From positions 1 through 22,823 of the IMG/VR virus record IMGVR_UViG_3300030098_001852: a stretch of 22,823 nt of DNA, one strand, 5' to 3'. Under the pieces are notes generated by a model, which saw nothing but the letters and a program-made list of their open reading frames with translations, did no database searches and was not told where the DNA came from. The number at the start of each line of letters is the position of its first letter. Position 1 is the first letter of the stretch. Position numbers and translations under genes: made by a program. Positions 1-15,534 of the stretch are shown in pieces. The DNA comes from a virus.

Positions 1-1014
1 TGCATTTTCTTTTTCAGTAACATATCTAGATTCGGCTTCCTTCCGTGCCTCTATTTCTGCGTGTACTTGTCTATTTCTTGCTTCTATTTCGTCATATCTA
101 CTTAAAGACTGAACATTTATAGCACCACCGTTGTTGTAAGTAGTTAAAGCTTGGTTTTCTGCTTCTCTCCAACCTTCAATAATAATTTGGTCAGGATCAA
201 CACCTACATGTTTATGAAGTTTTTCTAGTACTTTTCCTTCTGGTAATTGTATTTTATCGTCATCTTGAAATGCTAGATATTCTTGGAAGGATCTAAGTTT
301 ATCAAATGCTATACCAGCTTGGTCATACCCCTCATCTGTTCTAATAAATTCGAATTTATTCTGCTTTATATATCTGTTCCAAATAGAATCTTGTAAGGCT
401 AAATTGGTAAGACTGTTGGTACCACCTCTAGCAGCTGTTTTACCATGATCTATATCCTTTCCTTCTGTACCTTTTAATCTGTTATAGACCCATTTCTGCC
501 ATTTAATATATCCTTCTTTAGATTTACCCTCTGGCCAACCATAGTTTCTATTTGGATCATATTTCTCAGTTTTATAATACTTTCTAAATAATTTCCTCAT
601 TTTATTGTGGAAATCTTTCTCAGCATTACGTGCAGCTTTTGCGTCTTTAGGGAATTCAAGTTTCTCTTTTAATTCAGCTTTATATTCTTCAATTTTATCT
701 AAAGCTAATACTTGGCCTTTTGTTTCAGGTACAAATCCGTATAAGGCTGAACTTCTTTTTTCTTCGTGTTTTTTCTTACTTTCTAGTTGTTTAAGTTTAT
801 TTGGAAAAGTAATCTCTCCTTTATTAAGAGAAGCACCAAATATTTGGCCATCTTCTTTTAGATATCCAAAGTGTTTAGTGAAACCAGCTAAACTTTTACT
901 TCCTTTTACGAAGTTCTCTTTATTATTTAAAAAAGCTTTAGCTGCTCTTGCATAAGCTTGTCTATTCCCATCAAAAACATTTGAATACCTCTTAGGTATT
1001 GTGATTTCAGACAT
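1..1014 (-). CDS. Large protein with internal HNH-like motif (C-terminus cut by window edge)
   Basis: An open frame runs 338 codons from an ATG at 1014 to the window edge without a stop, so the C-terminus is missing. The protein is highly charged and mostly helical in appearance, with long K/E-rich stretches. Residues 187-214 read D-I-D-H, then R-G-G-T-N and T-N-L, then W-N-R. This spacing resembles an HNH (beta-beta-alpha metal) nuclease core with H190, N204 and N213, although the zinc-binding cysteines of classical HNH proteins are absent. I do not recognise the family. It lies where T7 order would place gene 19 (large terminase), but I see no Walker A motif in the visible part. An intrinsic terminator ends directly at its start codon and no separate ribosome-binding site is present. 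The nuclease role is an inference from the motif alone. Confidence 0.8.
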   Translation of the reverse strand, partial: MSEITIPKRYSNVFDGNRQAYARAAKAFLNNKENFVKGSKSLAGFTKHFGYLKEDGQIFGASLNKGEITFPNKLKQLESKKKHEEKRSSALYGFVPETKGQVLALDKIEEYKAELKEKLEFPKDAKAARNAEKDFHNKMRKLFRKYYKTEKYDPNRNYGWPEGKSKEGYIKWQKWVYNRLKGTEGKDIDHGKTAARGGTNSLTNLALQDSIWNRYIKQNKFEFIRTDEGYDQAGIAFDKLRSFQEYLAFQDDDKIQLPEGKVLEKLHKHVGVDPDQIIIEGWREAENQALTTYNNGGAINVQSLSRYDEIEARNRQVHAEIEARKEAESRYVTEKENA

Positions 1015-1061: not shown

Positions 1062-1391
1062 CTAACTAATGTGAGACAGAATCAACTGTTCTCTATCAGG
1101 GATACGTCCATATGTTTGGCGCATCCATCTGAGCCAATGACTACTACCTTTACCTTGGTTGCAAGTTCTACAAGCAGGGACAAGATTGCTTGCAATACTT
1201 TCTCCACCGTTTGTTTTAGGCTTGACATGATCAAGCGTGAGTTCATGTAATTCATAATTGTTTCCGCAATAAACACATTGACAATTGAAGTGCTCTTTAA
1301 TAGCTCTTCTCCAGAGCTTTTTAGCGTCAGGACTTGTCATGGTTATTAGGTTGTATAAATAGTGTTCAGGTTTAGGTAGTACAGGGGTCAT
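1062..1391 (-). CDS. HNH endonuclease
   Basis: This 109-aa protein has a classical zinc-supported HNH core: C-V-Y-C-G near residues 39-43, L-T-L-D-H-V-K-P near 51-58, N-G-G-E, then N-L-V-P-A-C-R-T-C-N. The two CxxC pairs would bind the structural zinc, and D-H with the following N supplies the metal-binding catalytic residues. Family members are single-domain nicking or double-strand DNA endonucleases, found free-standing in phages both as homing enzymes and as packaging helpers. The ATG at 1391 overlaps the stop of the preceding gene (ATGA); a second Met at residue 18 is a possible alternative start. Closeness to the small terminase makes a role in packaging possible, but homing activity cannot be excluded. 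Confidence 0.9.
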   Translation of the reverse strand: MTPVLPKPEHYLYNLITMTSPDAKKLWRRAIKEHFNCQCVYCGNNYELHELTLDHVKPKTNGGESIASNLVPACRTCNQGKGSSHWLRWMRQTYGRIPDREQLILSHIS

Positions 1392-1624
1392 TTACGAGTT
1401 TTTTTAAGTCTGCTTTTTCTATTAACCGAAGGTCTTTGAAGTCTCCCTCTAGTGGTACTTCCTTTATAGTGAGCAGCATCTAAGCCATCACCATTTCCGT
1501 AGGTACCAAGTTTTCGATTTAATTTATTAGCGTTAACTCTTAATGCTTTACCCTTTTTAGTTTTGTTGTACGCTTTCTGTTGGGCTTTATAATTTCCGTT
1601 AGCGTACTTCGCTCCTTTTGCCAT
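1388..1624 (-). CDS. Small basic protein with HNH-like D-x-x-H motif
   Basis: A 78-aa, strongly basic protein (many K, R and N). Its C-terminal half carries G-L-D-A-A-H-Y-K-G at residues 47-55, then T-T-R-G-R and P-S-V-N-R-K-S-R. This D-x-x-H ... R-G ... x-N-R pattern resembles small phage proteins with a degenerate HNH-type metal site that sit near terminase genes; that likeness is from memory. There are no cysteines for a structural zinc. The gene starts at an ATG 26 bases inside the end of the small terminase gene, and its stop overlaps the HNH gene start by 4 bases, so the three are probably translationally coupled. DNA binding or nuclease activity is inferred. Confidence 0.75.
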   Translation of the reverse strand: MAKGAKYANGNYKAQQKAYNKTKKGKALRVNANKLNRKLGTYGNGDGLDAAHYKGSTTRGRLQRPSVNRKSRLKKTRK

Positions 1625-1868
1625 ATAGTCTTGTTTGTACGAGTTCTGGGTCTACAGTTGGCATAATTGCAGCTAGCTTTGATAAAGGGCTGCCTTCTAA
1701 AGCAATACCGCTTATGTCATTAGTCTTTAGCCAATCACAAGCTGCTTTTAAATCTTGAGTAGTAGCAGTGCCACTTTTGACCCGCTTTAGGAATTCTTCT
1801 GTGACAAGGCTATGTAATTCGTTGAACTGATCTTCAGTGGCTTTTTGTGTGCGAAAGGCTTTGTTCAT
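1599..1868 (-). CDS. Terminase small subunit, T7 gp18-like (DNA maturase A)
   Basis: An 89-aa protein, the same length as T7 gp18. It has a helical N-terminal part (Q-F-N-E-L-H-S-L-V-T-E-E-F) followed by R-V-K-S-G-T-A-T-T-Q-D-L-K-A-A-C-D-W-L-K-T-N-D-I, a pattern I associate with small terminase subunits of T7-like marine phages. The C-terminus is P-T-V-D-P-E. The protein would recognise concatemeric phage DNA and present it to the large terminase. Its ATG overlaps the upstream stop (TAATG). In T7 the large subunit gene 19 follows with only a spanin gene between; here HNH-type genes follow instead and the large subunit is not in the window. The assignment rests on motif, size and position. Confidence 0.75.
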   Translation of the reverse strand: MNKAFRTQKATEDQFNELHSLVTEEFLKRVKSGTATTQDLKAACDWLKTNDISGIALEGSPLSKLAAIMPTVDPELVQTRLYGKRSEVR

Positions 1869-2035
1869 TACTCTTTAGTTCCTGGGAATAAATTCTTCTT
1901 AATTAATTCGACTGCCTTATCATCAATGGTATTGTCAGTTGACTCAGCATAGGCTTCTAGTAGTTGTATAACTAATTCCTTTACAGCTGAAGAGCTGAGG
2001 AATGCCATTAGGATGGGCTTGATAAGTACGATCAT
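1868..2035 (-). CDS. Small conserved-looking protein, 55 aa
   Basis: A 55-residue protein starts M-I-V-L-I-K-P-I-L-M-A-F-L and ends N-L-F-P-G-T-K-E. The first 20 residues are hydrophobic or amphipathic, and the rest is acidic (D-N-T-I-D-D-K-A-V-E). I recall similar short proteins in marine phages, but cannot name a function. Its ATG overlaps the stop of the preceding 25-codon gene as ATGA, and its TAA overlaps the ATG of the small terminase as TAATG. Such back-to-back coupling strongly suggests real translation. No Shine-Dalgarno sequence precedes it, in line with reinitiation. A membrane-associated role near lysis genes is only a guess. Confidence 0.72.
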   Translation of the reverse strand: MIVLIKPILMAFLSSSAVKELVIQLLEAYAESTDNTIDDKAVELIKKNLFPGTKE

Positions 2036-2109
2036 GGTGTGTTAATTGTGTTTTTTAAAAAAATGTATAAAAGTATGGTTACGCAAATAACCGCTATAAA
2101 CGAAGTCAT
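2032..2109 (-). CDS. 25-residue single-helix membrane mini-protein
   Basis: This tiny ORF encodes M-T-S-F-I-A-V-I-C-V-T-I-L-L-Y-I-F-L-K-N-T-I-N-T-P. One hydrophobic run of about 15 residues is followed by a lysine and a polar tail. The ATG at 2109 overlaps the stop of the upstream gene (ATGA), and its TGA overlaps the ATG of the downstream gene (ATGA). It therefore fills the gap exactly, in one frame, between two coding genes, which is hard to explain by chance. A single-pass membrane peptide next to signal-peptide proteins could be a small holin-like or antiholin-like lysis factor, but there is no family recognition behind this. Confidence 0.6.
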   Translation of the reverse strand: MTSFIAVICVTILLYIFLKNTINTP

Positions 2110-2747
2110 TTCTTAAATGGGTTTAATGACCACCCTTTCTTTTCAGGTTGTGGTGGTTCTTTTGATTTGAGGTAAGACGCAATTGGAATAACGTCATTAC
2201 ACATATGAGCTACACGACTACCAGGTACTAGCATGAAGCCTTTCTGTTGTAGTTCAGCACATTTCAGTGCTCTTACTAACTCATAATCCAACTGCATTTT
2301 TTCTTCTTGTCTTTTAGCAATGCGTCGGCACTGCTCTAGTCCACGTTTATCTAGTGGAACCATAAAGTTAAGTTGCATACCCCAGTTTTCAGTCATGGTG
2401 TAACTACTGGGAGACATTTCTCCTTTACTGTGTTCCCAAGGTTTAACGTGATTACCCATATAGAAAGGTGAGAACGTCATAGTGCTTCCGTTACAGGAAA
2501 TATTGGGTCCATAGTTCTGCCTGGATGGAGCACCATTGTTCTGGAATTGCACGGCTTGATTGGTTACATTTCCAGTCGCAGCCGCCACAGGATTAGAGGT
2601 GTTATTTATCTCATCCTCTGCACGTGCTGGTAGACCTATTGCGAGAAGACCGATAAGGAGGTAGTGGTAGCTGTAGTTTCGATGTCTCTTGTGATATCGA
2701 TTGTTTCTACTACTCCCGCTGATCTTGTCACTGTTTCGAAAGTGAAT
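2106..2747 (-). CDS. Exported protein of unknown function; start codon uncertain
   Basis: The frame ends at 2106 and clearly codes from about 2660 downward. A signal-peptide-like core L-L-I-G-L-L-A-I-G-L-P-A-R-A is followed by a mature part of about 170 residues starting E-D-E-I-N-N. The mature part has a polar N-terminal region, several cysteines, a charged helical stretch (C-R-R-I-A-K-R-Q-E-E-K-M) and a lysine/proline-rich tail. No ATG, GTG or TTG lies in frame within about 85 codons before the hydrophobic core, and the open frame further upstream reads like a shadow of the overlapping gene. The left limit given here is an ATT at 2747, preceded 4 bases away by AAGGAG; an ATC at 2654 or an indel are alternatives. 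It is followed directly by the 25-codon gene (ATGA). An envelope or lysis role is possible but unproven. Confidence 0.6.
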   Translation of the reverse strand: MHFRNSDKISGSSRNNRYHKRHRNYSYHYLLIGLLAIGLPARAEDEINNTSNPVAAATGNVTNQAVQFQNNGAPSRQNYGPNISCNGSTMTFSPFYMGNHVKPWEHSKGEMSPSSYTMTENWGMQLNFMVPLDKRGLEQCRRIAKRQEEKMQLDYELVRALKCAELQQKGFMLVPGSRVAHMCNDVIPIASYLKSKEPPQPEKKGWSLNPFKK

Positions 2748-3004
2748 GGATCTCCTTGCGTTGTTACTGTAAATATTGAATCTGAAGCTTCGATACCGCC
2801 TGAAGTAGCTGAAGAGTGAGTTATGTTGTCTCCTGACCACTTTTTGTATGCGCCACCATATACTTCTGTTTCGATTGTTTCTGTTATCTCTTGAGTTGTA
2901 GTTGTTGTCGATTGCATACTCCCTTGTGTGAACTGAGGAGTAATTAAGTCGGCTCTTGCAACTGTGGGTGATACCAGCATTAAGAGTAGTAGCCATTTTT
3001 TCAT
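2636..3004 (-). CDS. Exported Thr-rich protein with signal peptide
   Basis: The start chosen is the ATG at 3004 (M-K-K-W-L-L-L-L-M-L-V-S), which overlaps the TGA of the upstream gene as ATGA; an in-frame ATG nine codons earlier would add a charged leader and is less likely. Residues 1-18 or so form a classical signal peptide ending A-R-A before D-L-I-T-P. The mature part of roughly 100 residues is rich in Thr, Ser, Glu and Ile, with pseudo-repeats such as T-T-T-T-T-Q-E-I-T-E-T-I-E-T and I-T-R-D-I-E-T-T-A-T-T-T. That suggests an extended beta or fibrous protein. Its end overlaps the next gene in the -1 frame. I do not recognise the family; it may act in the periplasm or be a virion component. 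Confidence 0.72.
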   Translation of the reverse strand: MKKWLLLLMLVSPTVARADLITPQFTQGSMQSTTTTTQEITETIETEVYGGAYKKWSGDNITHSSATSGGIEASDSIFTVTTQGDPFTFETVTRSAGVVETIDITRDIETTATTTSLSVFSQ

Positions 3005-3318
3005 TCTTCTTTTTTCTTTGCCATAGGACAATTGACGGGAGTTATGTTTCCGTTGTTTTTACTATTACCTGTGGTCAAACCAAAACTGGCAAGTGCTCCC
3101 GTAAACACACTGGCAACGAACGTGATATCTGAGTTCCCAGCTTTCTTTATCATCGGTAATTCAACGTAGTTCATCGTTATGATGAAACCAGACCAAACCA
3201 CAACGCCAAGTCTGACGAATGTTCCTAAGATCTGGATTTGGTGTTCTTGGTCTTCAGCAGCGTCTTTTAGCTTGCTAATGAGACCTTTTCTTTTTTCTCC
3301 TTTCTCTTTTTCTTCCAT
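3001..3318 (-). CDS. Two-helix membrane protein, holin-like candidate
   Basis: A 105-aa protein with a strongly basic and acidic N-terminus (M-E-E-K-E-K-G-E-K-R-K-G), followed by a likely membrane segment around F-V-R-L-G-V-V-V-W-S-G-F-I-I-T-M. After a polar loop (E-L-P-M-I-K-K-A-G-N-S-D) comes a second segment, F-V-A-S-V-F-T-G-A-L-A-S-F-G-L. The C-terminus is polar, with a final K-K-K-E-E. Size and topology fit a class II holin, and similar proteins occur in cyanophages (recalled, not searched). The ATG lies 52 bases inside the end of the upstream gene, and its TGA overlaps the next start (ATGA). Holin function is inferred from topology and from the neighbouring secreted proteins. Confidence 0.7.
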   Translation of the reverse strand: MEEKEKGEKRKGLISKLKDAAEDQEHQIQILGTFVRLGVVVWSGFIITMNYVELPMIKKAGNSDITFVASVFTGALASFGLTTGNSKNNGNITPVNCPMAKKKEE

Positions 3319-3665
3319 GCGTCAATTTTGCCTTGAAGGAATTTCTGAACCTTTTTCTTAATTGGTTCAAATAGTGATGAGGTAATAGATGTGGTACCTA
3401 CAGCCACTACAGCAGTAGTTACCGCCGTAACCACTACCGCAGTTTCGGGTAGTGGCATTTGTATATCTAATACAGGTATATCTAATTTCCTTGGTGGAGG
3501 TGGAGCTTCACTTGTAGAAGTCTCTGCCTTTACTCCATCTGGTGACTCCAAATCTGTAGGAGGAATCACCATTGTTTTATATCTAGGAACTTTTGCTGTA
3601 GGTACCTTCAAAGTCATCCTCGGAATAGGTGGTACCGAGGGTAACGTCAATGAAGGTAGTTCCAA
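3267..3665 (-). CDS. Pro-rich protein with one membrane segment and basic tail (TTG start)
   Basis: A 132-aa protein in three parts. The first is a proline-rich, low-complexity region of about 70 residues (L-P-S-V-P-P-I-P-R-M, S-E-A-P-P-P-P-R-K). The second is a hydrophobic segment, A-V-V-V-T-A-V-T-T-A-V-V-A-V-G, suited to span a membrane. The third is a very basic C-terminus rich in K. The start is a TTG at 3665 that directly abuts the TAA of the upstream gene, with GGAGG 11 bases before it; the next in-frame Met is at residue 17. The same architecture is familiar from cyanophage genomes, but its function is unknown to me. It could anchor a virion or envelope complex. It overlaps the following gene by 52 bases. 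Confidence 0.7.
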   Translation of the reverse strand: MELPSLTLPSVPPIPRMTLKVPTAKVPRYKTMVIPPTDLESPDGVKAETSTSEAPPPPRKLDIPVLDIQMPLPETAVVVTAVTTAVVAVGTTSITSSLFEPIKKKVQKFLQGKIDAWKKKRKEKKEKVSLAS

Positions 3666-6163: not shown

Positions 6164-6687
6164 CCTTGTATCTCCATAATTGTTATTGAGGAAGCACCTC
6201 TTGCTTGCCAAGTTGCATCGACATCATTATGACTTCTATTTAAATATACAGCTTCTGTAGCATTATTCCCGTGTCGGAAAGCTACTCCATAAGCAGTAGA
6301 ACTTGTTGAAGGAGAACTAAGTAGATACGTAATTTGTGCACCATCGTTAACCCCATCACTTCCAGGATGGGTAGGACAAGAAGAACGTGCTCGATCACCA
6401 GCAGCATCTCCTCTATATGCTGACTCACTACCACCAATCATTAAAACTGGATAAATAAGAGATGTATCGCAACCCATACTGAGATTTATCTGAATTAATA
6501 ATTTATTACTTGAACTTGCAGCGGCATAATTAGTTGAAAACAAGACAGCACTTATAGCTCCATCTCCAACTTCTGCTGAAGCTGTATCTGTTTTAACTAC
6601 AGAATGTACGTTGACTATTGCATGTTGTGGTTGAACCGCTGTTGTCGGAGTTATAACGTTTGTTGTTCCGTTTAATGTAATTGCCAT
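6160..6687 (-). CDS. Fibre-like / tail tip protein
   Basis: A 175-aa protein starts M-A-I-T-L-N-G-T-T-N-V-I-T-P-T-T-A, an opening common to phage tail fibre and tip proteins. It continues into a beta-rich globular domain with V-L-F-S-T-N-Y-A-A-A, L-L-I-Q-I-N-L-S-M and a C-terminal S-S-I-T-I-M-E-I-Q-G. The fold looks like a small jelly-roll, and the C-terminal S-I-T-I-M-E-I recurs in marine phage tip proteins that I recall. Glycosidase motifs are not evident. It sits 2 bases after the gp17-like fibre gene and overlaps its helper by 4 bases. A role as receptor-contacting tip of the fibre is inferred. Confidence 0.72.
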   Translation of the reverse strand: MAITLNGTTNVITPTTAVQPQHAIVNVHSVVKTDTASAEVGDGAISAVLFSTNYAAASSSNKLLIQINLSMGCDTSLIYPVLMIGGSESAYRGDAAGDRARSSCPTHPGSDGVNDGAQITYLLSSPSTSSTAYGVAFRHGNNATEAVYLNRSHNDVDATWQARGASSITIMEIQG

Positions 6688-6689
6688 AG

Positions 6690-8915
6690 TTATACCACCG
6701 TGAATACTGACCCACTAGGGATCGTTAATGTGTAGCTACCTGTTGAGAACGGTCCAGCTACTAAGCCGTTATTACCTGTACCTATTGTTCTATTTGCTGT
6801 CATAGTAGCTTTATGTTCTACAAAATCATTAATCGAAGCTGGTAAGTTTGTTAAACTAGCTCCACTACCAGCAAATGCTGTAGCAGTTACAGTACCTGTA
6901 CTTGGATTATAATGGAAATCTCCATCTGTTTCTAATCCACGACTACCAGCACCTCCAGCATCTTCTACAAAGGCTATAAGGTTATTTTCATCTGTATTTT
7001 CATTATCTGTAATTGTAACGTGATCCGCTGTACCAGTTGTGTCTTGGTTCAGTGTTCCAACTACAAAATCTAAAGTACCATCACCGTCTTCATATGTTAC
7101 TGCAATACCTGTCTCAGTATTACCAGTAACCATACCACCAACAATGTCTTGTACTTCTTCAGTGCTCAGTTGAGTGTTAGTGTCAGTTGAGACTAAATCA
7201 ATAGTACCGTCATCATCTTGATAAGTAGCAGTAATATTAGTTTCAGTATTACCACTAAACATAGCACCAACAATATCCTGTACTTCTTCAGTACTTAATT
7301 GAGTGTTGGTATCTGTAGTCTGAGCAACCCAAGATAAATTTCCACTACCGTCAGTTTTTAAAACTTGGTTAGCAGTTCCATCATCATCAGGAAGAGTTAA
7401 TGTATAACTTGCTGCAGCACTATGAGCTGGTCCTTTTATTTTTACACCGTGACTATTATTCTCACAATTAAGTTGGATAGTACCAGGGTTGGTATTACCT
7501 TTAACTTCTAATAGACCAGTTCCATTAGGTGTAAGTTTGATATTACCGTTAGTTGTACTGGTGTTTATTTCCCGTGCTTGTACATCTAAGTTACCACCAA
7601 GTTGAGGACTGCTATCGTCAACTATATCGGATAGACCTCCACCACCACCACCACCACTTGAGGCAATAGTAATAGTATCAGTACTATCATTTGTGGTAAT
7701 CGTGACGTTACTACCAGCTTCAAGAGTTAATGTATCTGTAGCACCATCTGCTACCACACTATTTTGTCCAGAGACAGCTATGGTTTTGAATGCTTCGCTT
7801 GCTCCACTACCACCGCCACCTCCAGCATTAGCAGCCCACTTAACACCTGTAGCTTCTGAACTATCAGCTGTAAGGATATAACCATTAGTACCAACACTTA
7901 ACGCTGACGGATCACCAGACCCATCGCCTACCAATATCTCGCCTTTAACATCAAGGTCTGAGTTCATTACAGCACCAGCTGCATTGACATTAGTAGCATC
8001 AGTTACATCAGCACTGGCTTCTATAGCTGCTAACTTAGTTTTCTCCGCATCTGTATAGGCATTTGTATTTGACTCGCCTTCATACGCTGATTTTATCTCT
8101 GCACCTGTTTGGTCAGCTGTAGCTGCAGTTTCTATTCCATCTAATTTTGTCTTATCAGCTGATGAGATACTACCTGGTGCTGAAGTGGTAGATGCTGCTA
8201 TTTTTGATCCATCAATTGCTGCAGATGAAGATATATCAGCATTAGTAATAGTCCCATCTACTATTTTAGATGAGTCAACAGAGTTAGCAGATAGGTGAAC
8301 TAAATCGATTGATCCATCAACATATTGATCACTATCAACTGAGTTAGCTGACATGTGGGCTAGATCTATTGACCCATCAACATATTGATCGCTGTCAACT
8401 GAGTTAGCTGACATGTGTTCTAAATCAATAGACCCTGCTACGTAGTGCTCTGAATCAATAGAATCATCAGCTATCTTTGTACCGTCAATTGAATCAGCTC
8501 TGATCTTATCTCTAGTTACAGCGACGTTAGTTATTCGATAAGTATTAACTGTATCTGACTGAGCTTCTTGTAAAGCGTACAAGATTTGATCTTGGTTATC
8601 GTTCAAATCTCCAGCTCTTACAGAAGATCCAGCTGAATAAACAGCTTTAGCTGTATCGACTTCTGTGTCTCTATAAACTCTTACGGCTACTCCAGTTTTA
8701 GGAGCACCGTCACTTTCTTGTACAGTGCTATCAACACTTGTAGCATTAAAAGTAATTTTTGTGGGTGAGGTGGATACTGTGTATTTAGTTGTAGCTTGCG
8801 TTAATCCATTTAACGAAACTTTGACGTCTTCAGTTTTTAGATATGGAAAAGAGAATGTATATTCTTTATTTGAACCATTAACTGCTCCTCCATTATCGAC
8901 ATAAGTTGTAGCCAT
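6690..8915 (-). CDS. Tail fibre, T7 gp17-like
   Basis: A 741-aa fibre. Residues 1-120 match the T7 gp17 N-terminal attachment domain in pattern (F-S-F-P-Y-L, V-K-V-S-L-N-G, Y-R-D-T-E-V-D, A-G-D-L-N-D-N-Q-D-Q-I-L-Y-A-L-Q-E-A). Residues 142-221 are eight decapeptides of the form S-[IV]-D. Residues 534-619 are two copies of a 43-residue unit starting T-D-T-N-T-Q-L-S-T-E-E-V-Q-D. Two polyglycine hinges lie at 365-369 and 421-427. The C-terminal part has P-S-T-G-T-V-T-A-T-A-F and ends T-I-P-S-G-S-V-F-T-V-V. The fibre trimerises and links the tail to receptor-binding tips. Length exceeds T7 gp17 (553 aa) because of the repeats. It is 15 bases from the gp16-like gene. Confidence 0.92.
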   Translation of the reverse strand: MATTYVDNGGAVNGSNKEYTFSFPYLKTEDVKVSLNGLTQATTKYTVSTSPTKITFNATSVDSTVQESDGAPKTGVAVRVYRDTEVDTAKAVYSAGSSVRAGDLNDNQDQILYALQEAQSDTVNTYRITNVAVTRDKIRADSIDGTKIADDSIDSEHYVAGSIDLEHMSANSVDSDQYVDGSIDLAHMSANSVDSDQYVDGSIDLVHLSANSVDSSKIVDGTITNADISSSAAIDGSKIAASTTSAPGSISSADKTKLDGIETAATADQTGAEIKSAYEGESNTNAYTDAEKTKLAAIEASADVTDATNVNAAGAVMNSDLDVKGEILVGDGSGDPSALSVGTNGYILTADSSEATGVKWAANAGGGGGSGASEAFKTIAVSGQNSVVADGATDTLTLEAGSNVTITTNDSTDTITIASSGGGGGGGLSDIVDDSSPQLGGNLDVQAREINTSTTNGNIKLTPNGTGLLEVKGNTNPGTIQLNCENNSHGVKIKGPAHSAAASYTLTLPDDDGTANQVLKTDGSGNLSWVAQTTDTNTQLSTEEVQDIVGAMFSGNTETNITATYQDDDGTIDLVSTDTNTQLSTEEVQDIVGGMVTGNTETGIAVTYEDGDGTLDFVVGTLNQDTTGTADHVTITDNENTDENNLIAFVEDAGGAGSRGLETDGDFHYNPSTGTVTATAFAGSGASLTNLPASINDFVEHKATMTANRTIGTGNNGLVAGPFSTGSYTLTIPSGSVFTVV
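7059..7316 (-). repeat. Two-copy 43-residue repeat in tail fibre
   Basis: Fibre residues 534-576 and 577-619 are tandem copies starting T-D-T-N-T-Q-L-S-T-E-E-V-Q-D-I-V-G and continuing G-N-T-E-T-x-I, then T-Y-x-D-x-D-G-T-[IL]-D. Around eleven of the first seventeen codons differ at silent positions, so the copies are old or under protein-level selection. Confidence 0.85.
8253..8492 (-). repeat. Decapeptide (S-I/V-D) tandem repeat in tail fibre
   Basis: Fibre residues 142-221 are eight 10-residue units, each starting S-I-D or S-V-D. The alternating pair S-I-D-L-x-H-M-S-A-N and S-V-D-S-D-Q-Y-V-D-G recurs, giving near-identical 60-base repeats at about 8313-8432. The pattern suggests a regular beta-helical shaft segment. 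Confidence 0.88.
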
Positions 8916-8930
8916 TTCCCGTTGGGTAAA

Positions 8931-11900
8931 TTAATTGTTTTGCCAATCCAATAAGCCTCGTATCTGTTCGGTTTGACCTGTTTCAGTTAGATAATCAATT
9001 TGATCATTAATATATTGTTTCCTTCTTACTTTTTCTTGATCGCTTATATGTGCTTCTGCGAATTTCTTAGCTCTCCTTAACGCATCATTTAGACGCATAT
9101 GTATCCTCATGAATAACTTTCTATCCATCGGTACATTGGAGTTTTTATATAGTTTTCGGAATTCCTTACCGTCTACTGATCCCATTATATCTTTAATTTC
9201 TTTCTTAAACCAGCCATATTTACCCATAAGTTCGGTGACTTCGGATCTTTGACTAGGTGTATATTCAACACCCTTACCGTTGGTTCTTAGTTGAGGTCTA
9301 CCATTCCATTCAATATCTATAAGGAATTGTTTCTCAGGACTGATTCTATCACTTTGTTTAAACCAAGGTGAATATGTATTAACTACACGTTGCCAGAAGT
9401 TTTCAGGTTCACCTACTTTACCTCCATCAACCCAGTCATATACATCAGCTAATCCTTGTTTTAGACCTACGTTTCTGTTAGCAAGTAGTTGAGTTAACTC
9501 TTGATCTACTTCTTTTAATGAAGGTGTTATTAATCTTCCTAATTCATTTCTAAAACCACTACCAGGTAAGAATGAGCTTCCAAAACTAGCTCCCCATCTA
9601 GCTAATGCAGCAGGGTTTCCAGCTAATACATCATTAAGTGGTTCTAAACCAGCTGTAAATGATTTATTGGTTAGGTTTGCAGATATGATAAAACCCATCT
9701 TATTTAACATAGTCTCGATATTAGTCTCATCTAACGTATCGAAGTTATCCATAATATCAGTTGTAAGTGACAACCAATCAGATAATGGACCTAAGTTTTC
9801 ATAGCTATACCATTTACCATCCCAACCCTGATAAGTGAGAGGTTTCCAACCAAGCTCTCTTCTAGTCTTTTGTCTAGTCTTATCATATAAACCATTACCA
9901 CGGATACGACCACTAAGGAATAAACCTACAGCTCCTCCAACTGAGAGAGTACCTATAGCTTTTCTACCTTTAAGTTCAGCTCTAATAGTCTCATACGCAG
10001 CTTTAGCATTCTCATCAAATGGTATTCCTCTAGCAGCTAATAAATTCTCTACTTGTTCTTTATTAGTGATAGCCATATCAAATGGATGCTTAAACTCAGC
10101 TAATTCATTACGGAATAAAGCTAGTGGATTATGAGATCCAGTGAACTTAAGCATATTCATAGATGTTTTAGGGAACATCAAGAATGGTTTTAAAGCAGGA
10201 TATTTTTGAATTAATTTACTTAGAGCATTAACTGAGTCATTCTCTAAGTTCATAGCAATCTCTTTACTTGCGTATTCAACTGCTTTATCAGTTATAAACC
10301 CTCTTTCATCAAACATTTGATCATATAGACCATTGGATAACTTCTTAATGCTATCTGCATTTAAAGCTTTCTCACCTCCCTCTTTGAGCAATTTATCATA
10401 TGCTCTACCTCTAGCTTCAACACTACCAATAAATGATCTAGTAAATCCGTCAAACGCTGTCATAGTGTTAGCACTTAGACGTAACCAAGGGTGTTCAGAT
10501 AAATCATTCATAGCTTCTATCTGAGCTACCAGAGCAGAAGGTCCATACTCACCTACACTTTCCTTAGCTTCACCATAAGAACGTAGAACTTTCATAGTTC
10601 CTTCATTCTTACGTGCTATATCTTCACGCATAATATATCCAACAGAACTAGGATCACTCCAAGATCTTCTGAATATTTGATTCATATGACTGAACGCTTT
10701 CTGTAACGTATCAACCATACCAACGGTGTACATATAACTACCGCGTCTTAGTGTTGCTGCATCTCCTTCAATCAATGCACCACCAAGGGTAGCGATAGGA
10801 CGTTCAATCATTAAAGCTAGGTTAGATGCACCTGCTTTTAATGGAGTACCTATAGAAGATAGAACAGAGTTATAGATGTTAGCCCACATACCTTGTGTCC
10901 AAGCTGAAGGCATGTCAGGATTGACATCAACTAAAGCTTTCTTAAAGACACCAGTAGTGTTTCTGATGTAGTCATTCAATGCTGAAATGGTAGATACCTT
11001 TCCATCAGTGACTTCATAAGCTAATTGTAGGGGTCTTAACAATTCAGGACGTTCAGCTGATACCTGCCTAAGAGTCTCGATAGTTTGATTTGTTTCAAAA
11101 GTAAGCTTTTTAAGATGCTCTTTTGTCAAACTTGTCTCATCTTTAATTGCAGTGAGCATCTCATCCATCGTCAGCTCTTTTTTAAATGCACGTTTTCCAA
11201 GGTTTAGCATGTTCAATGCTCTACCTCTTACGTAAGAAGTAGTACCTTTGATCTGCATTAAGTATTGAAGACGGTCTAATATTTGTTCTTGAGCACGTTT
11301 TACAGCTCCAGGGTTTTCACTAAATAATCTTGCACCTTCTGACATATCAGCAACTTGACCAGCTAGAGAAGTAGCTATATAGCCTTGAGCACGTACTATA
11401 TCCATATTGATATAGTCATCCATATACTGTTTGATAGCACTCATGACTCCTGCATATCCTTCAGAACTGAGAACTTTTGCACCAGAGTCAACATCTACAC
11501 CAGACAATCCTTTGATGATACCTTTCATATCTTCAACAGGAAGGCCATATAAGTCAGCACCTATCTTGTTTCCTGATTTAACTATCTCTGCATGAGAAAG
11601 GTATTTACCATTACTGAATTTATAGCCATATTTAGAGTCTTTTAATATATCTGCTGCCTGTACTATTAATCTTTGACCAGCATCATCACCTTTGGTTAGG
11701 AATTGTAGAGCACCAGGAGTAACTACAGAACCAACTCTTCCATAGATGGTATCTAGATTCTGTTCTATCCTTACTACATCAACTGAAGCTCCTAATATGC
11801 CATCAGGGTCTCCAGTTCTAATACCTGATTCTGTATAACCATAGAGATCATGCATACCGAATATAGGTTCATCTAAATTAACTGATTGGTTCAAATTAAC

Positions 11901-12806: not shown

Positions 12807-15534
12807 AGAATCCTGGTCTTACTAGTTGTGATAAGTTTTTGGGTGTTGGTTCGTATTTATAGTTAGCTTGTTGTACGTTTTGTTTTTCGTCTTCATTTAA
12901 TATAGGAACATTAGGAATGATTTCATTCATTAAGTCATTAACTCTATCGGATGACCATTTACTGAAATTCACAACACCAGTTGTTATAAGTTCAGCTAGA
13001 AAATCTCCAGTAGCTTTACCAGAGGCTATTTCAGCAAATTGCACAATCTCTTCTAGTTGTTCGTCTAGTGGTTTTCCCTCTATAGCTTCATCCATTAGCT
13101 TATTCACTTCAATGGAAGTGTCTTTTCTGAATTGGTTTAATCGACTAGTAACTACTCTGAACACTTGTTTATAAGCATCGGCTCCCATTTGGAAACCTCC
13201 CATTATCTGACCGTTTATATGTGCAGCTGCTAGTCCAACTCTATCCCAATCTATTTCACCACTAGTTGATTTTGGTGTGACTCCATAAGCTGCTGCAATA
13301 TTCGGATTAGTAATAAATAACTCGTACGTACCAGCTAGTTGACCAAACTCATTACCGTTTTCTTTAGAATAATTAAATAGCTCTTCACCCTTATTATTCA
13401 GTACAAAAGCAATATTAAGATTGTCAGTATTCTGACCAAGCTTACCTAAAATACGTGTAGATCCATTGAATCCACTGTATTCCATAGTTATATGGTCTTC
13501 TTTAGATAACCAGCGATCAGTTAAATCGAGTGATGGACTTGGAGAAGGTAGAGGTATTCCATGCGCTTTAGCTATCTTTTCTAGTATTTGTTGTTTACTT
13601 ATAGTACCCGCTGGTTGAGAGTTAAAGATTGTATTCACCTCTTGTGGGTAGCGAGGATCATCCTGAGTAGCTAAGTGATTTGTATATGCCTCTTCGAACC
13701 TTTCTTTAGTCATCACCTTATTTATATTCTCAGGTGTGAATAATGAATTAACATCTCTATTCCTTCTTAGTACACCATTAATCCTTTTATTAATTTTATT
13801 CCTGCGAGTTACACGATTAGTAGCTGCTGATAAATCTGCAGGACTGTCATTAAATCCAGGTACTTTGAAACCTTTAACGCTATCAGTATTAGGAGGATTT
13901 GTTGCGCTATTATAAGTATCAAACCACTCTTCAGCTACTTGACGTGCATATGCAGATGGGTTTGCTTCCTCAGCATTTATAGCTGCTGTTAATGCGTTGT
14001 TATAGATTTGACCTACTAGGTAATCTGCCATAGCATCTTCATTACCTTCACCTTCACTAAACCCCAATGTTCTACGTCTAGATTTTACGAGACCTCTTAG
14101 ATATTCTGTATCTTTCTTCTTATGTTTAGAAACTATAGTATCTATTATTGCAGCTTTTGATTTATATTTCTCTATAAGTTGTGCATCTCCTGTGTCGTAC
14201 AACGCGACTGTAGTCAATTCATTTTTATCTATCATATCTAAGACTTTTGCCTCTTCGTTTGACTGTTCTAATGCACCTGGAGATTGATTTTCGATATATT
14301 TATTTAACTTTGTTGGCTCCATTCCAAAGAAATCTTCATTTTGAAGTAAATCAGTTTTGAGTCCTATTAAATATCTCTGGTCTACCCTAGTAGGATCATC
14401 TTTCAGTTGTTGTTGTATCGTCTTAAATATATCTTCTTGTGCATCCTCAAAGGCTGCTCTCTTTTTATCATCATCAGCTTCTTGTTGATCTACTATAGCT
14501 TGATCCATATGTTGCTTCATCTCTAAATACCTTCTAGGTATCTTATCTTTAATCATCACAAACTTACCTGAACCAGGTGGGTCTTCAATCAGAGCCTTCA
14601 TAGATTCCTCGAATTCATCTGGTTGTAACCGACCTAAATCCATTTCCTTCTTCACAACCTCCATCGCTTTATCATGAGCACCTGTTCTGGTATAACCTTT
14701 AGGTGGTTTTGATTTTGGATCAGTAGTTGCCTGTAGACTTGTTATTAAATTTACATAGTTAGAATTTATAGAGAATTCTTGAGTAGCTGTTTCGACATCT
14801 ATAGTTCCTTGTTCAATAGCAAAGTCTCTAGTATCACGTTTTGCCGCTGCATTGTGTGCGTCTAAAACCTGTGAGTAGAAACCATTTTTTTCAGCTAGTA
14901 GAGCTTTGTTGTAATAAAGATCATTATCCTTGATATATTGTCTAAGTATAGCATTTCTAGCAGCGTCTTTTTGTTTAGGGGTTTGAGCGGTTTTAGGTGT
15001 AAATGTCACACCATTAAGCATTAATTCAAGTGTATCATTAGTGCTCATCTCCCCTTCTAAATGACCTGCGTATTCTTTACCCAATAAAGCTGATCTAGTA
15101 GAGGCTGTCTTATATGAAACAGCTCCACTTGTATTAGCGATGTTTGTAGCTTGTTCTTGAGTACCTCCATTCTGTAAAACTTTAGCAGATACCTCTTTAC
15201 TTTTTCTTTCATTATCATCTACCTCTTTTTTAACTTTGTTATAAGCTTCCTCTTCTTCAGTAGATAAAATAGGTTTATCTAGTTTTTGATGAAGATTAAG
15301 GGCTTCCACATACTCATCGGCTATGGCATCATTATCGGCTTCCCAAGCTGCTATCTCTTTATCTTGCTCAAGTTTATCTCCTAGTTTTTTGGAGAATTTT
15401 GCTGCAGATTCAAAGAGTTCCTTTTCTCGTTTAATGGCTTCTGCAGTTCTTTCCTTATCGTACTGTCCAGCACGTGTTAAGTTCCTGATTTCGCCAGTTT
15501 GCCAGCTATCTAGGATTTCATTATAAGTAGACAT
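12796..15534 (-). CDS. Internal virion protein, T7 gp15-like
   Basis: A 912-aa, highly charged and mostly helical protein, larger than T7 gp15 (747 aa), located between gp14- and gp16-like genes. The N-terminus (M-S-T-Y-N-E-I-L-D-S-W-Q-T-G-E-I) leads into coiled-coil-like K/E-rich segments over about 150 residues. The C-terminus is K-Y-E-P-T-P-K-N-L-S-Q-L-V-R-P-G-F-Y-G-Q. I see no enzymatic motif. In T7, gp15 forms part of the inner core and, with gp14 and gp16, the ejected channel through the cell envelope. Order and size support the same role. It starts 27 bases after the gp14-like gene and overlaps the gp16-like gene by 11 bases. Confidence 0.85.
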   Translation of the reverse strand: MSTYNEILDSWQTGEIRNLTRAGQYDKERTAEAIKREKELFESAAKFSKKLGDKLEQDKEIAAWEADNDAIADEYVEALNLHQKLDKPILSTEEEEAYNKVKKEVDDNERKSKEVSAKVLQNGGTQEQATNIANTSGAVSYKTASTRSALLGKEYAGHLEGEMSTNDTLELMLNGVTFTPKTAQTPKQKDAARNAILRQYIKDNDLYYNKALLAEKNGFYSQVLDAHNAAAKRDTRDFAIEQGTIDVETATQEFSINSNYVNLITSLQATTDPKSKPPKGYTRTGAHDKAMEVVKKEMDLGRLQPDEFEESMKALIEDPPGSGKFVMIKDKIPRRYLEMKQHMDQAIVDQQEADDDKKRAAFEDAQEDIFKTIQQQLKDDPTRVDQRYLIGLKTDLLQNEDFFGMEPTKLNKYIENQSPGALEQSNEEAKVLDMIDKNELTTVALYDTGDAQLIEKYKSKAAIIDTIVSKHKKKDTEYLRGLVKSRRRTLGFSEGEGNEDAMADYLVGQIYNNALTAAINAEEANPSAYARQVAEEWFDTYNSATNPPNTDSVKGFKVPGFNDSPADLSAATNRVTRRNKINKRINGVLRRNRDVNSLFTPENINKVMTKERFEEAYTNHLATQDDPRYPQEVNTIFNSQPAGTISKQQILEKIAKAHGIPLPSPSPSLDLTDRWLSKEDHITMEYSGFNGSTRILGKLGQNTDNLNIAFVLNNKGEELFNYSKENGNEFGQLAGTYELFITNPNIAAAYGVTPKSTSGEIDWDRVGLAAAHINGQIMGGFQMGADAYKQVFRVVTSRLNQFRKDTSIEVNKLMDEAIEGKPLDEQLEEIVQFAEIASGKATGDFLAELITTGVVNFSKWSSDRVNDLMNEIIPNVPILNEDEKQNVQQANYKYEPTPKNLSQLVRPGFYGQ

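Follow-up and report, generated by a model that had tools for sequence, protein, structure and literature searches.

A membrane and export gene module with an embedded gene, common to T7-like and T4-like picocyanophages, and its possible role in envelope breaching

Gene content of the interval between fibre and terminase

The window analysed here is the whole 22.8-kb (22,823-nucleotide) piece of a T7-like cyanophage taken from IMG/VR record IMGVR_UViG_3300030098_001852, and the genes in question, henceforth referred to as open reading frames (ORFs) 1 to 6, are six small minus-strand genes between its tail fibre and terminase genes. Neighbouring genes share 74–77% DNA identity with those of P-SSP2, P-SSP3, P-GSP1 and P-SSP7. 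The minus-strand order runs from a T7-type tail fibre gene (6690-8915) through helper genes and ORF1 to ORF6 to the small terminase gene (1868-1599) and an HNH nuclease gene. All six frames named in a preliminary description of this region were present (Table 1). The overlaps from ORF1 through ORF6 to the small terminase gene measure 52, 4, 361, 4, 4 and 1 nucleotides, and ORF1–ORF6 look translationally coupled because successive genes overlap, ORF6 also overlapping terminase. ORF1, ORF2, ORF3, ORF4 and ORF6 are real genes, as indicated by their strong matches to PHROG families (E 1e-27 to 1e-56), every one of which is of unknown function.

Table 1 Features of the six-gene region. Positions are those of the window; E values refer to the family named.
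Feature	Position	Strand	Length (aa)	Description	Family matches
ORF1	3267..3665	(-)	132	Single hydrophobic segment AVVVTAVTTAVVAVGTT between an N-terminal arm rich in Pro (18 Pro) and a basic C-terminal tail	phrog_9426, E 2.6e-47
ORF2	3001..3318	(-)	105	Hydrophobic segments 31-47 and 65-81, charged ends	DUF6450 (PF20048), E 4.7e-32, 110 bits (cut-off 25); phrog_721; phrog_2714, E 7.6e-38; T4-GC 218
ORF3	2636..3004	(-)	122	Sec signal peptide, Thr-rich, predicted secreted	phrog_650, E 1.5e-36; T4-GC 236
ORF4	2106..2996	(-)	296	Basic N-terminal stretch, hydrophobic segment and AxA|E site, predicted exported domain with 4 Cys	phrog_1755, E 6.4e-56, and phrog_848, E 9.2e-55 (shorter ORF4 form as query); T4-GC 235 ('gp165')
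ORF5	2032..2109	(-)	25	Single hydrophobic helix; lineage-specific accessory, outside the conserved core	
ORF6	1868..2035	(-)	55	Hydrophobic start; widespread in cyanopodoviruses	phrog_2738, E 1.8e-27
Double start ATGAAAAAATG	2994..3004	(-)		ORF3 ATG overlapping ORF2 stop (ATGA); ORF4 ATG 8 nucleotides downstream	
ORF4 hydrophobic segment and signal-peptidase-like site (YHYLLIGLLAIGLPARA|E)	2619..2669	(-)		P123 and A126 invariant	

The six genes did not hold together as the single cassette that had been proposed. ORF1–ORF4 form a module, with genes 042–045 of P-SSP7 as their syntenic counterparts. The one-helix mini-protein ORF5 has the expected frame and hydrophobic segment but lies outside the conserved unit and is restricted to close relatives, being matched at E < 1e-3 in only 9 loci, the window included, out of about 92 related ones. 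ORF6, the short protein with a hydrophobic start, is likewise present and conserved but relocates. It lies upstream of ORF1 in S-TIP37, S-SBP1, S-RIP1 and MedDCM-S45-C4 and on the opposite strand in P-SCSP2 and P-RSP2, and Syn5, which has no module, retains it as gp48 adjoining the small terminase gene. ORF6 travels with the terminase and fibre genes and is probably outside the core module.

ORF3 is embedded in ORF4

ORF3 and ORF4 had been described as two partly nested signal-peptide proteins. Export signals and overlap were both found, but "partly" is too weak, as ORF3 lies wholly inside ORF4 except for its first 8 nucleotides. The end of ORF3, read in the -1 frame, encodes the conserved hydrophobic segment and AxA|E site of ORF4. 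Overlap statistics were compiled from 77 non-redundant divergent loci, including the window, with no correction for relatedness. The -1 frame is open through the whole of ORF3 in 57 of these loci (74%; one or a few clades), compared to 2.5% under synonymous shuffling of the same proteins. A third-base T before AA, AG or GA, which would give a -1 stop, was observed at 1/1055 in the full-overlap loci and at 30% elsewhere in the same genes, a contrast that is partly circular since the loci had been picked for openness. The same T context occurs at its usual level elsewhere (45% in other clades where ORF3 runs clear of ORF4, 57% in the large window genes). An ATG at +8 from the ATG of ORF3 was present in all 57 full-overlap loci and in 3 of the 20 others, and the third base of ORF3 codon 3, which makes this ATG, is a nearly invariant A (5 synonymous changes observed vs 71 expected). 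The ORF3/ORF4 overlap is selected and not a product of chance.

Across ORF3 codons 5–100, ORF3-silent substitutions occur at similar rates whether they change ORF4 or not (0.368 vs 0.375), so the N-terminal sequence of ORF4 is unconstrained. Over the last 21 ORF3 codons, substitutions that change ORF4 occur at 0.174 and ORF4-silent ones at 0.484 (0.36 of the silent rate), which demonstrates that the ORF4 hydrophobic segment is constrained. The target of selection seems to be the start of ORF4 and not the sequence that the overlap encodes. We infer that the +8 ATG serves to start ORF4 where ribosomes finish ORF2, the added stretch being tolerated. The pair offers a clean natural example of gene overlap, with long stretches whose frame stays open while their sequence can vary freely.

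In other clades ORF4 starts further down, at -190/-205, -109 or -64 nucleotides from the ORF3 stop, and in P-SCSP2 the overlap is in a different frame. A programmed -1 frameshift from ORF3 into ORF4 was suspected since most relatives have no start codon near the signal-like segment. It was dropped because every locus with an untruncated frame has an in-frame start and the +8 ATG tracks openness in 57 of 57 cases; an additional frameshift is formally possible. A non-AUG start of ORF4 near -64 was dropped on the same two grounds. Annotated ORF4 starts disagree, giving about 294 residues in NATL1A-7, about 135 in NATL2A-133 and no annotated gene in MedDCM-S45-C4; the annotation of ORF4 is thus inconsistent or missing in the close relatives' records NC_016658, NC_016659 and AP013538.

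Properties of the encoded proteins

ORF1 is the Pro-rich single-pass protein with a basic tail that had been described; its net charge is +8 and its hydrophobic segment was located by a Kyte-Doolittle scan. ORF2 has the size and topology of a class II (two-transmembrane, two-TM) holin, being small and containing two hydrophobic segments. The likeness to holins suggested for it extends to topology but not to profiles, as ORF2 fell into no holin family in PHROGs or Pfam and matched DUF6450 and phrogs of unknown function only.

AlphaFold2 (AF2) models of ORF3 and ORF4 were built on 57–59 relatives. The ORF3 model is all-beta, with strands at residues 28-49 and 98-120 (about 22 residues each), a mean predicted local distance difference test score (pLDDT) of 77 and a predicted template modelling score (pTM) of 0.34. 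ORF4 was modelled poorly (mean pLDDT 52), with a hydrophobic helix at 102-120 and a better helix at 217-251 (35 residues); its residues conserved across relatives include C168, C223, C246 and C266. The top matches of the ORF3 model in the PDB were phage collar proteins and the stems of beta-pore formers, none of them significant (Foldseek E at least 0.003, VIA Z at most 4.3). Those to beta-pore formers of the aerolysin/lysenin type had a Foldseek E of at least 0.086 and a VIA Z of at most 4.3, from a model of pTM 0.34, and the ORF3 fold matches are taken as a weak lead only. The low-confidence ORF4 model gave nothing above Z 4.3 in the PDB, and a PDB sequence search with the ORF3 and ORF4 profiles gave no convincing match.

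Distribution and T4-like counterpart

ORF1–ORF4 are the T7-like counterpart of the T4-like cyanophage cluster T4-GC 218/234/235/236/237. T4-GCs 218, 219, 234, 235 and 237 were reported as a conserved cluster in all but S-PM2, with no function given (Sullivan et al. 2010, PMC3037559). The T4-like version of what had been put forward as an unrecognised system was therefore already on record as a conserved cluster of unknown function. New here are the findings that the cluster is common to T7-like phages and that it contains a selected, almost fully embedded gene.

The correspondence of ORF2 to GC218, ORF3 to GC236 and ORF4 to GC235 was established by profile match, and the ORF3/ORF4 overlap is found in myophages too. 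The GC218 protein of P-HM2 matches DUF6450 (E 2.7e-34). ORF3 itself is below the gathering cut-off of DUF6322 (PF19847; 17.2 vs 30.6 bits); its P-HM2 orthologue scores 128 on that family, and both proteins match phrog_650. ORF1 is a probable relative of T4-GC 234, judging by their shared architecture of Pro-rich arm, hydrophobic segment and basic tail and by a match in the myophage S-H38, where phrog_9426 also matches a 260-residue frame (E 4.4e-5) on the same strand as, and about 1 kb from, the DUF6450 gene. Profile comparison of ORF1 with GC234 by hhalign gave a probability of 57% over 28 columns only, covering the hydrophobic segment, and direct BLASTP against the GC234 protein PHM2_194 failed (E 0.27).

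The T4-like cluster differs from the window, where four genes lie on one strand, in forming two convergent units with GC219 and GC237 in addition. In 45 IMG/VR loci obtained with a P-HM2 query, GC237, GC236 (ORF3) and GC235 (ORF4) are convergent with GC234 and usually GC218 (ORF2) where the contig extends far enough. ORF1 is likewise convergent to ORF2–ORF4 in P-SCSP2 and P-RSP2. GC237 is a probable paralogue of GC236/ORF3, with a match to phrog_650 (E 1.6e-4) and an hhalign probability of 93% with GC236. The P-HM2 GC237 gene (8835-9392) encodes a predicted secreted protein and adjoins GC236 in myophages; the podoviruses examined seem to be single-copy.

Eleven of 14 test phages carried the ORF2 (PF20048), ORF3 (phrog_650) and ORF4 (phrog_848) families, and the other three, Syn5, P60 and S-PM2, lacked all of them; the 14 phages were hand-picked, several for carrying the genes, and the result shows linkage, not frequency. 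ORF4 homologues were present in 439 phage records and ORF2 homologues in 430, with cobS, a core cyanomyophage gene, in 462 as a rough yardstick. All ORF2 and ORF4 records bear Synechococcus, Prochlorococcus, cyanophage, marine or uncultured names, in agreement with the cyanophage specificity originally claimed. Nine matches from a search for cellular homologues, in marine single-cell or metagenome-assembled genome contigs and one isolate assembly, look like phage contigs. The contig NZ_RMVE01000006.1 (188,235 bp; Nonlabens xiamenensis 1Q3 assembly) carries a relative of ORF4 with 28% identity; it is as long as a cyanomyophage genome and may be a phage contaminant.

Discussion

Few lysis genes have been identified in marine cyanophages, whose hosts are the most abundant photosynthetic cells, and a survey of spanins found none in P-SSP7, Syn5, P60 and many cyanomyophages (Kongari et al. 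2018, PMC6139136). A linked four-gene module present in most T4-like and many T7-like picocyanophages is a concrete and testable target. ORF1–ORF4 occur together, encode proteins predicted to be exported or to lie in membranes, and include a gene embedded in another; they form a real, conserved, cyanophage-specific membrane and export module of inferred function. We consider ORF1–ORF4 a host-envelope module common to most marine picocyanophages, with envelope breaching at lysis as its likeliest job, and assign this reading a probability of about 0.4.

Lysis is plausible because of the position between fibre and terminase genes, which is that of the T7 holin as the preliminary description had pointed out, because of the two-TM protein and the two exported proteins, and because no holin, endolysin or spanin is found among the annotated genes of the complete P-SSP7 genome. 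The annotated membrane or signal-peptide genes of P-SSP7 besides psbA and hliP are 042–044, the counterparts of ORF1–ORF3, according to a simple hydropathy cut-off that gives some false segments and misses others. The all-or-none co-occurrence of the ORF2, ORF3 and ORF4 families also counts for a lysis role, as does the presence of the module in both T4-like and T7-like phages that infect the same hosts, which indicates that it is not tied to a virion type. No lysis module was found elsewhere in the P-SSP7 annotation, and no free endolysin (Amidase_2, GH19, Phage_lysozyme) in module-bearing phages. A recognisable lysozyme or endolysin is present in all three module-lacking myophages (S-PM2, S-H34 and S-B68), whereas none of the few Pfam families tested was found as a free endolysin in the four module-bearing myophages P-HM2, S-H38, S-SM2 and S-SM1, the S-SM1 lysozyme domain sitting in a 925-residue frame. 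This contrast of 3/3 vs 0/4 comes from a small sample and is suggestive only. Module-lacking Syn5 and P60 likewise have no endolysin of the tested families.

The T7-type endolysin (Amidase_2) was found in 0 of 16 cyanopodoviruses, and GH19 and Phage_lysozyme in none of the podoviruses tested. P-SSP7 gp050 weakly matches (E 9.8e-10) a portion of a PHROG profile of 1175 positions, over a hydrophobic C-terminal stretch; it was rejected as an endolysin as its homologues do not repeat the match and Pfam gives no hydrolase. In S-PM2 (NC_006820), positions 116286-116696 match Phage_lysozyme (E 1e-22) within a free-standing 169-residue frame.

The region resembles T7 17.5 (holin) and 18.5/18.7 (spanin pair) in its genomic interval, its combination of membrane and exported proteins and the embedding of one gene in another. 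The T7 spanin pair follows the small terminase gene, whereas the cassette precedes it; T7 18.5 has no counterpart of the long N-terminal stretch of ORF4, and ORF3 has no lipobox. There is no sequence similarity, as had been stated earlier: the best BLASTP match of ORF1–ORF6 to T7 gp17.5, gp18.5 and gp18.7 had an E of 0.009 over 22 residues. Rz/Rz1 of lambda is alike in that a small exported-protein gene lies wholly inside a larger gene, whose product has a single membrane segment and a periplasmic domain that contains a helix. In the window, however, there is no lipoprotein, the embedded ORF3 starts first and the larger ORF4 8 nucleotides later, and the shared DNA specifies an unconstrained stretch of ORF4. 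ORF3 contains no Cys and thus no lipobox Cys of an o-spanin. ORF4 has the two helices that could suit an i-spanin but also a cleavage-like AxA|E site, in a model of low pLDDT. A scan of every frame of the window for a lipoprotein, whether o-spanin or u-spanin, gave only a spurious 16-residue frame at 14357.

A number of observations weigh against a lysis role. Searches with ORF1–ORF6 in PHROGs and Pfam gave no holin or spanin profile and no homology to any lysis family, a structure search gave no such link either, and no fold of known function was matched significantly by either AF2 model. The cassette encodes no lipobox protein on either strand, and no endolysin was found alongside the module. 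Syn5, P60 and S-PM2 lyse Synechococcus cells and have no module. In S-SM1 the two convergent units of the cluster are flanked by regA and hsp20/gp43 and surrounded by replication genes. Finally, a single-TM family, phrog_12220, occurs together with the module in S-RIP1, S-TIP37, S-SBP1 and MedDCM-S45-C4. Of the cyanophage lysis system first envisaged, the host range, the membrane and exported proteins and the T7-like position stand, but no profile or fold link to holins or spanins was obtained and three lysing phages do without it. Nothing observed speaks for the suggested fit to a wall with thylakoids beneath.

The module may instead alter the envelope of the infected host, blocking further adsorption or DNA entry or changing transport without lysis, as in superinfection exclusion or envelope takeover. 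Such a role would suit the same membrane and exported proteins, their sharing by unrelated phages of the same hosts, as expected for competitors, the location of the S-SM1 cluster within replication genes and near pstS/phoA, and the lack of the module in some lysing phages. The all-or-none set and the T7-like position fit it less well, and superinfection-exclusion systems usually consist of one or two small proteins; we regard this role as possible, though on the unlikely side. The predicted long beta strands of ORF3, its weak matches, at Z 4.3 to 2, to the stems of beta-pore formers and to ring-shaped or tubular proteins, and the probable paralogy of GC237 and GC236 would be consistent with a phage-made surface or secretion structure, in which ORF3 (in myophages also GC237) polymerises or forms an outer-membrane beta pore and ORF4 is its periplasmic partner for export or import during infection. 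All of these structural matches are below significance, the model has a pTM of 0.34, and long strands alone yield such matches, which makes the structure improbable.

The proteins might also be minor parts of the virion or of the DNA-ejection apparatus that work within the next host's envelope, as suggested by the fibre and terminase neighbours in podoviruses and by the phage collar proteins among the weak ORF3 fold matches. Two proteins with export signals would be unusual for virions assembled in the cytoplasm, the same module occurs in contractile-tailed and short-tailed phages, and the structural genes of S-SM1 lie far from it, all of which renders a virion role quite improbable. Record labels were discarded as a guide to virion membership, the S-SM1 record calling a known virion protein "hypothetical".

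In the favoured reading, ribosomes ending ORF2 at the ATGA may restart at either of the two ATGs and so yield ORF3 and ORF4 in a set ratio. Both products would be exported, ORF4 via its internal hydrophobic segment, its basic stretch staying inside or being discarded, and ORF3 with its long beta strands could work together with the helix and Cys domain of ORF4 in the periplasm. More speculatively, ORF2 might act as a two-TM holin would and permeabilise the inner membrane, ORF1 might anchor its Pro-rich arm there, and ORF3/ORF4 might take the role of spanins by disrupting the wall or the outer membrane. The full scheme, in which the outer membrane is opened without spanins by an inserting or bridging ORF3 with ORF4 as periplasmic partner, in a ratio fixed by the twin start and with ORF2 as holin, as one exchangeable module for T4-like and T7-like phages, is improbable in all its parts together.

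Other genes

The phrog_12220 family counts for a lysis role in that S-H34 and S-B68 have it close to endolysin genes and in Syn5 it fills the fibre–terminase interval. Its Syn5 member, gp47 (6393-6653), is alike in being a small single-TM protein of that interval but is unrelated in sequence to the module. Relatives occur in P60, S-TIP28, S-H34, S-B68 and S-CRES3, and the family is a candidate lysis accessory. The genes in S-H34 and S-B68 are about 2-2.5 kb from the annotated endolysin, the S-CRES3 member is annotated, apparently wrongly, as lysozyme, and one member weakly matches an Rz-like spanin profile (E 0.0047). The family was rejected as a mutually exclusive substitute for the module, as four phages carry both.

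Between the small terminase and HNH nuclease genes of the window, positions 1388-1624 (minus strand) encode a very basic 78-residue protein of phrog_6437, a member of which also adjoins the phrog_12220 gene in S-CRES3. Positions 1-1014 (minus strand, running off the end) encode a partial 338-residue protein that matches no Pfam family and contains an HNH-like stretch, DIDHGKTAARGGTNSLTNLALQDSIWNR. This protein corresponds in position to gp050 of P-SSP7, which has a hydrophobic, Gly-rich C-terminus.

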